Below the pieces are notes generated by a model, which saw only the letters and a list, made by a program, of their open reading frames with translations, did no database searches and was not told where the DNA came from. 64,000 nucleotides of DNA from Salvelinus alpinus (lineage: Eukaryota > Chordata > Actinopteri > Salmoniformes > Salmonidae). Of this stretch, positions 41,423 to 44,400 are shown piece after piece. The DNA lies in assembly GCF_045679555.1 (NCBI RefSeq), contig NC_092091.1, positions 68,885,683-68,949,682 on the forward strand, given 5' to 3'. The position numbers and the translations under genes are program-made. Each line of letters opens with the position of its first letter. Position 1 is the stretch's first letter.

Positions 41423-44400
41423 CTGGAATGAGAGAGAGAGAGAGTGAGAGAGAGCGAGATGGATGGAGAGATGGTGAGAGAGAGAGAAAGAAAGAGGGAG
41501 GGATGGGGAGAGTGAAAGAAAGAGAGAGAGAAAGAGGGAGGGATGGGGAGTGTGAAAGAAAGAGAGAGAGAGAAAGAGGGAGGGATGGGGAGTGTGAAAG
41601 AAAGAAAGAAAGAGAGAAAGAGAGAGATTGAGCGGTGGACCGATGGAAAGTGATAGAAGGAGAGAAGAGAAAGCAGAGTTATAGTGTATGGCTGGAGAGG
41701 TCTATGGTATAGACAGAAAGATGGGGGTGAATCCTAACTTCCACAAGGTCAAATCTTCACTTCGACTCCAATTGACATCAATGGATGAGCGAAAATGAAG
41801 TTAATTCAACTAAGTGAAAATTTGACTTAAATAGAAGTTAGGGTTATTCCTATAGTAAAAGAAAGATAAGATTATCTCTGGAGTAAAGCTCTTACCTGGA
41901 GACCTTGCTGAAAGGGGGATGGAGGGCAGACGGAGGAGGAAGAAAGAAGGAGACAAGGCAAAGAGAGAAATGCATAAAAATGAAAAATGAATGTATATTT
42001 AGGTGATCGATTGATAGATATGATATGATTGATATTGAACAGACAGTAGTGTTGTCACGATACCAGAATTTTGACATCGATACCAGGTTTAGTACTGTAT
42101 CACGAAAACTCAACACCATCACAATACTCGATATCAAAAGGCATATTAGCCAAAGCCACAGAATGGCACTTGATCCAGACAGATAAACTTAGCTACTGCT
42201 CTGTTCAAACATTGGGCATCTTTTGAGTTCAATATCATTCTAACTTTTTTAAGTCAACATTTTTCAGAGACAGCCATGTATCGATTAATGAATCAATTAT
42301 ACAATCAATTTGACTTAGTTTTTTTGCCTCGTGAACGACATCATTACCGGTTAAAGAGAAAGAGCACATTTTATTAAAGAAGCCACTTCTATGCAAATGT
42401 TGTTGATCAGTACAATAAAACAAGTCCCAGATGGAAGGGGAACAGATTTGACTCGTTCAGTCAAAAATGTTGAATCTTTCGACTCATTTAGCTCATTTGA
42501 GCACGCAAGACCCCCTACTGGCGAACAATGAACTGAAAACTCGTAAGAGTCATGATTCTACAAGCCTCTCGTTCACATCTCATTCACCATAGGGAGCAGG
42601 CAGGACGCCCTACCGGCGAACAATGAACTGAAAACTCCCAGTGCAGGCTAGCAGTGAGTAGGTGGAGAAGGCACGGTGCGCGCTAGAATAAGGGGTCGGC
42701 GGCGCAGATAGACGTGCTTGATCCTTGAGAGACATTTGACAAAAGTACCGAAAGTAACAGAAATGCTTGTATCGAACCGTTTTTCATGTTCTAGTATGGA
42801 TAAAGTATTGAAGTTTCGGTATATCGTGCAACACTAACAGACAAAAAGACAGAGACAAAGGGAGACAAGGCCAGTCAGAGAAGAGAAAGACGTAAAAATG
42901 TTGGTTTGTCTTGCCGATTGATTGATAAACATATCGAAAAGACAAACGCGCAGACAAAAAGGCAGACAGAGAGAAACAAAGAGCGGAATACTGACAACAA
43001 AAACTTGGAATACAAACAGAGAGAGAGACAGGAGAGAAATCAGGAAACAGACTGGAGCCAGAAAGACAGTCCAGGAAAGAGCGAGAGACAGACCGTTCAT
43101 ATGGACACACAGACAGAGTGATAAAGTAGAGATATTCTGTCGTATCTCTCCAGAATTCACTCTAGGCTCACCTGGAGACCTTGCTGCAAAGAGGAAGAAA
43201 GAGAGAGAGAGCAAATGTGGGAGAAAGAGAAGAGGTATTTATGTTTAACTGCAATTGACATAGTTGGATAAATGGATGGATGGGTGCATTATGGCAATGA
43301 AGAGATGGCTTGGACAATCACCAAACAGATGGACGGAGACGGACGTACGGACAGACAGAAAGACAGACAGACAGTGATAGAAATAGACAGAGTGATATTA
43401 TGGTATCTCTCCAGGGTTCACTCTTGGTTTACCTGGAGACCTTGCTGCAAAAAGGAGAGAAATTCAAACGCAAAGGAGGAAAAGGCAAGCCACACAGCTA
43501 GAACAAGTGGATGGATGGAGAGATGGAGTGTTGGAGAAATGAAACTATGGAGAAATGACGAGATTGAGAAATGAAGAGATGTGAAGATAGGATGATTAGC
43601 CAGCCAGCCAGCCAGATAGATAGACAAACAGACAGATGACTTATCTCACCTGGAGACCTTGTTGCTGGATGGAATAACAGAAAGGAAAAGAGAAGAAAGA
43701 GTAGACAGGTATATATTTTCATTTGCCTGATAAGTGGATGAATGTAGAGATGGGGAGATAGATAGACGATGGGAAGACACAGACAGAGAGACAGAAATAG
43801 ACATAAGGAAAAGAGAGAGAAGAGAGAGACATTGATAGTGATGGAGAGAGAGAGGGATGGATTGTATTTATTATGGATCCCCATTAGTTCCTTCCAAGGC
43901 AGCAGCTACTCTTCCTGGGGTCCAGCAACATAAGACAGTTACATACAGTTTAAAATACTACATAACATTACATTTCATAACACCTAGTGATGTAGAGAGA
44001 GAGAGAGAGATGTCTGGCTTCATGGTAGGAGGGGAGAGTCTCACCTGGGGACCTGGATCCTTGGATGGCTCCATTGTGGTTTTCACTAGAGAGGTCCAAG
44101 GACTGACGCGGCTTAGGTATGAACTCTTTCTTGGGCTTGTTGGAGGAATCCCTTATCCTATGGATAATACATTGCAGAAACAAGCCCAAATAGTGAAGAG
44201 GGTGTTGATCCCAATCCCCCACCCCCCCCACCCCCTGCCGCATCGCTCGTTGAAAGAATTAATAGAATCTATTCATTCTATTTCTGCGGCATACTTAAGG
44301 GTTGGGGTCAAGGGTTATTGGGATCAATTCCATCTCACTTCTGGCGAACTCAGAGAATTCAGGAAAGGAATAAATCAGGCGGTTTCAATTCTTGATCCGA

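Follow-up and report, generated by a model that had tools for sequence, protein, structure and literature searches.

Four candidate microexons in the last intron of an endophilin-A gene

In its last intron, an endophilin-A gene of Salvelinus alpinus carries, on the minus strand and within 1.8 kb, four copies of the core CAAGGTCTCCAG, each lying in a small unit bounded by AG and GT. The gene lies in a window of 64,000 nucleotides (assembly GCF_045679555.1, contig NC_092091.1, positions 68,885,683 to 68,949,682), the whole stretch of DNA that was analysed, whose coordinates are used throughout. As judged from sequence alone, the four units are likely to be exons, and the reading that we favour, with moderate confidence, is that they are cassette microexons through which splicing would set the number of Ser-Pro sites and the amount of positive charge next to the SH3 domain of the encoded protein.

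The host gene is an endophilin A; endophilin is a membrane-bending protein of nerve endings. With a human SH3GL2 protein as tblastn query, its exons were located on the minus strand from 59179 down to 41232; exon 1 gave no match to this query inside the window. Pfam matched BAR to exon 6 and SH3_1 to the last exon, a combination that, together with PDB matches to endophilins A1-A3, identifies endophilin A (SH3GL1-3). Exons 6-7 matched SH3GL2 chains in the PDB at 134.7-138.6 bits and SH3GL3 at 123.8 bits, with no SH3GL1 chain among the matches, whereas the SH3 exon alone (A2 122.7, A1 122.4 and A3 120.7 bits) discriminates none of the three. The name sh3gl2 given in the initial annotation is therefore sound as to endophilin A, but undecided among A1, A2 and A3 on the SH3 exon; a sh3gl2-like (endophilin-A1-type) gene is the best fit, as exons 6-7 favour SH3GL2 over SH3GL3.

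Upstream of the intron, exon 6 (46158-46331) encodes part of the BAR domain and exon 7 (44644-44751) its end, both as tblastn spans on the minus strand. Exon 8 (44045-44157, minus strand), located by tblastn with its boundary set from the sequence and its translation, ends in SRSP, as the initial annotation had claimed, plus one base of the next codon, followed by gtgaga. The last coding exon (41229-41422, minus strand) contains the remaining linker (A-PLDQPS) and the SH3 domain to the stop codon. The array lies in the stretch from exon 8 to the SH3 exon (41423-44044; below, the interval), which is 64% pyrimidine on the sense strand.

All four core copies were found where the initial annotation had placed them, at 43650-43661 (inside 43650-43664), 43433-43444, 43172-43183 and 41896-41907. 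In the order of transcription, U1 (43650-43664, CAACAAGGTCTCCAG) is 15 nt long because the sole AG preceding it sits three bases further up, and would add ATRSP, while U2 (43433-43444), U3 (43172-43183) and U4 (41896-41907) are 12 nt long and would each add ARSP, so that the proposed gain of ARSP per unit stands for U2-U4 and not for U1. Every unit has AG on its 5' side and GT on its 3' side, has a length that is a multiple of three and is well below the 27-30 nt usually taken as the upper size of a microexon. Exon 8 stops one base into a codon and the SH3 exon (from 41422) resumes that phase; all 16 inclusion patterns translate in frame, each with a single terminal stop, which bears out the earlier statement that boundaries, lengths and phase fit together.

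The gaps between successive exons from exon 8 through U1, U2, U3 and U4 to the SH3 exon are 380, 205, 249, 1264 and 473 nt. As the unit lengths are multiples of three and the gaps are long enough for introns, the units could be used independently. Mutually exclusive use, in which one unit is chosen each time and the linker gains exactly one, is a frequent splicing mode of homologous tandem exons (PMC9741552). In the present array, several units together would keep the frame, the shortest gap of 205 nt should be no barrier to normal splicing, and a choice among units encoding the same peptide would be pointless, and we consider this arrangement very improbable.

Splice-site quality and expectation by chance

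All AG...GT pairs lying 3-51 nt apart in the interval were scored by splice sites alone, using vertebrate splice matrices and making no use of the repeat. Among the 272 candidates (95 in frame) the units took ranks 1-4, with scores of 26.9 (U3), 22.0 (U4), 21.1 (U1) and 20.6 (U2). The remaining microexon-like candidates of the interval scored 19.4 or less, and the seven next in rank overlap the units. In 400 dinucleotide shuffles of the interval, an in-frame candidate scoring at least 20.5 was absent from 392, occurred once in 8 and never occurred twice. By these matrices and the shuffle control, the units have competent 3' and 5' splice sites.

The 2.37 Gb genome contains the 12-mer core 195 times (91 forward, 104 reverse) and a reversed-letter control 316 times; at up to two mismatches the core is not enriched across the whole window (6 seen, 7.19 expected). 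The 12-mer itself is neither rare nor common; it is the clustering of four copies within 1.8 kb that stands out. The 16-mer formed by AG, core and GT occurs exactly three times in the genome, as U2-U4, all in this intron; one mismatch admits 33 further sites, U1 among them, and the reversed control has 23 sites in total (0 or 1 mismatch). Four copies with their boundaries had been called hard to explain by chance, and the confinement of the 16-mer to this intron and the lack of any shuffle with two candidates agree with that judgement: the array is well beyond chance.

The same data bear on whether the units could be decaying or noise exons, that is, duplicated copies whose splice sites look good, in an intron rich in pyrimidines, but which are seldom included. 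The pyrimidine content of the sense strand makes acceptor-like sequence easy to come by, and the eight shuffles with one good in-frame candidate, together with a best shuffled score of 25.5, give this view some ground. Against it, both sites have been kept in all four copies, which hold the top four ranks, the other candidates of the intron score 19.4 or less, and two candidates never arose together by shuffling; we regard noise exons as improbable. A fragment of a repeat or satellite that bears AG and GT by accident, with no tie to splicing, is less probable still and hardly credible. The window is repeat-rich, with a dispersed repeat in the stretch from U3 to U4, but the exact 16-mer is confined to this intron, the unit spacing is irregular (217, 261 and 1276), and apart from the self match no unit is covered by any of the 110 interval matches listed, for which 40 out of 3788 first-look candidates were scored.

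Origin of the units

U2 and U3 lie in the two copies of a 68-nt tandem duplication (43389-43456 and 43128-43195, minus strand) that are 82% identical. In the ungapped comparison, the core with its AG and GT agrees at 16/16 positions and the flanks at 40/52 (Jukes-Cantor distance 0.276); were the flank neutral, 16 sites would stay unchanged with a probability of about 0.012. Flanks were aligned in 20 comparisons, each against 200 mononucleotide shuffles. Four exceeded the maximum of their null, namely U2-U3 downstream (91 against 43), U1-U2 downstream (60 against 50), U1-U3 upstream (69 against 66) and exon 8-U2 upstream (42 against 34), and only the first of these is taken as clear because, with an intron this rich in CT, simple shuffling gives a lenient null. 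Likeness of the U4 flanks to other units was not found in these alignments. The sequence thus makes it clear that U2 and U3 are a tandem duplication of an exon-like unit with its downstream intron flank, which places them among tandem duplicated exons as homologous units with a shared intron flank; beyond the core, the likeness of U1 and U4 is weak or absent.

The final 12 bases of exon 8 share 10/12 positions with the core, for which the chance at one given site is about 6e-5 (from the 7.19 two-mismatch sites expected on the two strands of the window). Compared through the donor, exon 8 is identical to U1 at 16/18 positions. Since the end of exon 8 matches the core, the array may have grown from it, and the 3' end of exon 8 is probably the parent of the core. 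In the simplest origin, the end of exon 8 would have been copied with its donor, set behind a pyrimidine tract and then duplicated repeatedly. U1 and U4 may be either old copies with decayed flanks, which would imply strong constraint on the core, or the products of short copying events, which would imply little.

This origin also lends itself to a reading in which the units are spliced microexons with a role in linker length or flexibility only, or with no strong role, the RSP being inherited from the end of exon 8 and left unphosphorylated. The SRSP end of exon 8 already has the motif, so duplication explains its repetition, and the endophilin linker is reported to be disordered, less conserved and variable at 37-58 residues (PMC12457278). 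A pure spacer, however, would need no ARSP in every copy, and the 12 core bases are identical in all four copies, third codon positions included, whereas the flanks of U2 and U3 differ at 12/52 positions. We regard the length-only reading as unlikely.

Predicted linkers and proposed mechanism

In the reading that we favour, the units are cassette microexons that arose by repeated duplication of one tiny exon, and each would be skipped or included independently. Each included unit would lengthen the linker between the BAR and SH3 domains by 4 or 5 residues and add one Arg, hence one positive charge, and one Ser-Pro. A full Cdk-type site has the form S-P-x-R/K, and each of U2-U4 would convert the preceding Ser-Pro into Ser-Pro-Ala-Arg, a site of this type. 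Across the 16 linkers computed, the length runs from 12 residues with no unit to 29 with all four, the number of Ser-Pro from 1 to 5, that of S-P-x-R/K/H from 0 to 3 and the net charge from 0 to +4. The S-P-x-R count equals the number of U2-U4 units included, whether or not U1 is present. Splicing would thereby set the number of proline-directed phosphosites and the positive charge near the SH3 domain, from one Ser-Pro and no S-P-x-R without units to five and three with all of them. Phosphorylation would reverse the charge, and this may tune access of the SH3 domain to ligands, membrane or the BAR domain. We infer inclusion of the units, their neural regulation, and phosphorylation and its effect from the sequence and its setting.

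A stronger form of this proposal is possible though doubtful: an additive, splice-set counter of 0 to 3 Ser-Pro-Ala-Arg sites and of charge, acting as a graded, tissue-set phospho-rheostat for synaptic endocytosis and held by purifying selection that would include the synonymous bases. The initial annotation had also suggested that Arg and Pro near the SH3 domain tune partner binding, and in its simplest form this is not supported, as none of the 16 predicted linkers contains a PxxP motif; an SH3 self-ligand of the simple kind is ruled out on the same count. A DYRK-type RPxSP site was likewise set aside as a poor fit, with Arg at -1 and -5 and not at -2/-3 as in the consensus.

Published work on endophilins offers a context for these predictions. 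Linker swaps alter endocytic function and the linker bears modification sites, according to a review (PMC12457278). Cdk5 blocks the binding of endophilin to CRMP4 via a site adjoining the proline-rich motif, and the same paper points out Ser-Pro motifs near the endophilin-binding sites of other partners and proposes their control by Cdk5 (PMC8065113). In Ciona, DYRK1 phosphorylates endophilin at Ser263, past the BAR domain (29-257), and this is needed for lumen expansion (PMC10007804).

Regulatory setting and opposing evidence

Neural control of the units is plausible from the gene and its setting. In flies, exons that depend on eMIC (SRRM3/4 in vertebrates) are marked by long AG exclusion zones, UGC near the 3' site and UCUC tracts (PMC8797185), and in zebrafish the layout of UGC and UC repeats was found in 42 of 95 conserved microexons (PMC12626420). 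An AG-free stretch of at least 51 nt lies upstream of all four units, compared with 11 of the 83 other AGs of the interval. UGC and UCUC are frequent at other AGs, so neither discriminates the units; UGC as proof of control by SRRM4 was dropped, given its background count.

Several observations weigh against the favoured reading. UGC lies within 60 nt at three of the four units (U1 lacks it) and at 51/83 other AGs, which is no more than background, and UCUC within 100 nt at 4/4 units is common anyway (59/83 other AGs). The splice scores depend on the matrices used, the best shuffled candidate scores above three of the four units, and the donor of U2 (GTAAAC), the weakest among the units, scores 7.5 compared with 10.9-11.8 for the others. 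A strict CTRAY branch point was not found within 150 nt upstream of any of the four units. The case for constraint comes from one internal pair, U2/U3, within a single genome. The flanks of U1 and U4 hardly point to common ancestry, if at all, so these two units may stem from very short copying with no constraint afterwards. In zebrafish, removal of individual microexons gave minimal effects (PMC12626420).

Paralogous loci and repeats of the interval

Nine of the 56 genomic matches at E <= 1e-6 are SH3 exons of endophilin-A-like type, with identities of 69-100%. The eight loci other than the window gene look like four pairs, on contigs C11/C31, C16/C6, C5/C9 and C30/C23, as might be expected after the salmonid genome duplication. 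No partner of the window gene was found by SH3 exon, exon 6 or DNA search of the genome; the exon 6 search gave 7 matches and missed the known C11 and C31 copies, so that a tenth, partial gene may exist. The window gene stands alone, and the genome offers no visible sister copy, which would have been the best internal gauge of conservation. Pairs of the 12-mer on C5 and C9 were rejected as sister copies, having neither an endophilin match nor an AG/GT frame.

At each of the eight paralogue loci, 9.9 kb contained no unit with AG/GT at up to three mismatches, and the best in-frame candidate of their last introns scored 17.6 (at one locus, L033, scanning began after exon 7, as the position of exon 8 was not found; the other limits are approximate). 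This best candidate, of 30 or 48 nt in frame, lies in the last intron of the paralogue on C11 (L028) and scores below the units. The last introns of the C30/C23 pair (L034 and L035) have similar in-frame candidates of 48 and 33 nt, and this likeness hints at a genuine exon in the sh3gl1-like pair.

Within the interval, a dispersed, transposon-like repeat at 42044-42836, with many copies elsewhere at 72-97% identity, is not part of the array and has widened the stretch between U3 and U4. Directly 5' of the SH3 exon there are about 250 nt of CT-rich simple sequence (41424-41675, sense strand minus), a possible site for pyrimidine-tract-binding protein. In the intron between exon 8 and U1, 124 nt (43862-43985) match a site on contig C11 at 97% identity, perhaps a recent short insertion or a shared repeat.

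Other features of the window

At 7050-8201 on the minus strand, an open frame contained in one exon encodes a Forkhead domain (Pfam PF00250) and looks like foxe1. Between endophilin exons 5 and 6, a 4-kb minisatellite (47432-51514, plus strand) contains an open frame of 1361 codons on the plus strand and long open stretches on the minus strand at 47731-49674 and 50041-50994. In a second minisatellite (27485-30922, minus strand), two frames are open, one over 1146 codons and the other over 1130. The 3' ends of UnaL2-type LINEs (long interspersed elements; Rfam RF00436) were found at 17540-17593 (plus strand) and 37644-37697 (minus strand), and reverse-transcriptase fragments at 16375-17448, just upstream of the plus-strand LINE 3' end, and at 33862-34650.

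Relation to known systems and implications

In the exon a/b/c/AAG region of NCAM1 and at meA/meB of PTPRD, several small cassette exons likewise serve a single site of the protein. The small exons of these genes differ in sequence, whereas the endophilin units repeat one sequence. Neural microexons controlled by SRRM3/4 resemble the units in being in-frame exons of 3-27 nt in synaptic and trafficking genes, with long, UC-rich (PTBP-type) and AG-poor upstream tracts, and Endophilin B (EndoB, SH3GLB1), a distant relative, is a known microexon case (PMC8797185, PMC13387927). The microexons described there do not come as four near-identical copies in series, and UGC at the units is not above background.

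The human tandem duplicated exons (236 events, PMC9741552) share with the units the arrangement of adjacent homologous exons that arose by local duplication; the events studied there are substitutions with diverged peptides, whereas the candidate exons here encode the same peptide and would be additive. Schistosome micro-exon genes (MEGs) likewise use serial, very small, symmetrical exons, giving many slightly different proteins (PMC4350168). The coding region of a MEG consists mostly of small symmetrical exons, whereas the other endophilin exons are ordinary in size and the units are four in one linker of a conserved intracellular protein. Compared with neural-type microexons and tandem duplicated exons, the unusual feature of the array would be that its copies repeat one peptide and can add up.

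In the portions of open-licence full texts that were covered, no endophilin-A microexon is described, and the texts combining microexons with endophilin concern EndoB/SH3GLB1 or partners of Prominin. Arrays or clusters of microexons appear in that literature for plants and MicroExonator only, and neither 'sh3gl' nor 'tandem' appears in the MicroExonator paper. The unit array may be present in salmonid gene annotation already.

Most studied microexons are single switches with small effects, and an additive array of equal units would give a graded change. If the proposal is correct, splicing and proline-directed kinases would be linked through the linker of a protein central to endocytosis, and the gene would offer a natural series of n = 0 to 4 in which the effects of linker length and charge on SH3 function could be followed. 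The array would also be a clear case of possible microexon birth, in which the end of a neighbouring exon was copied along with its donor site.
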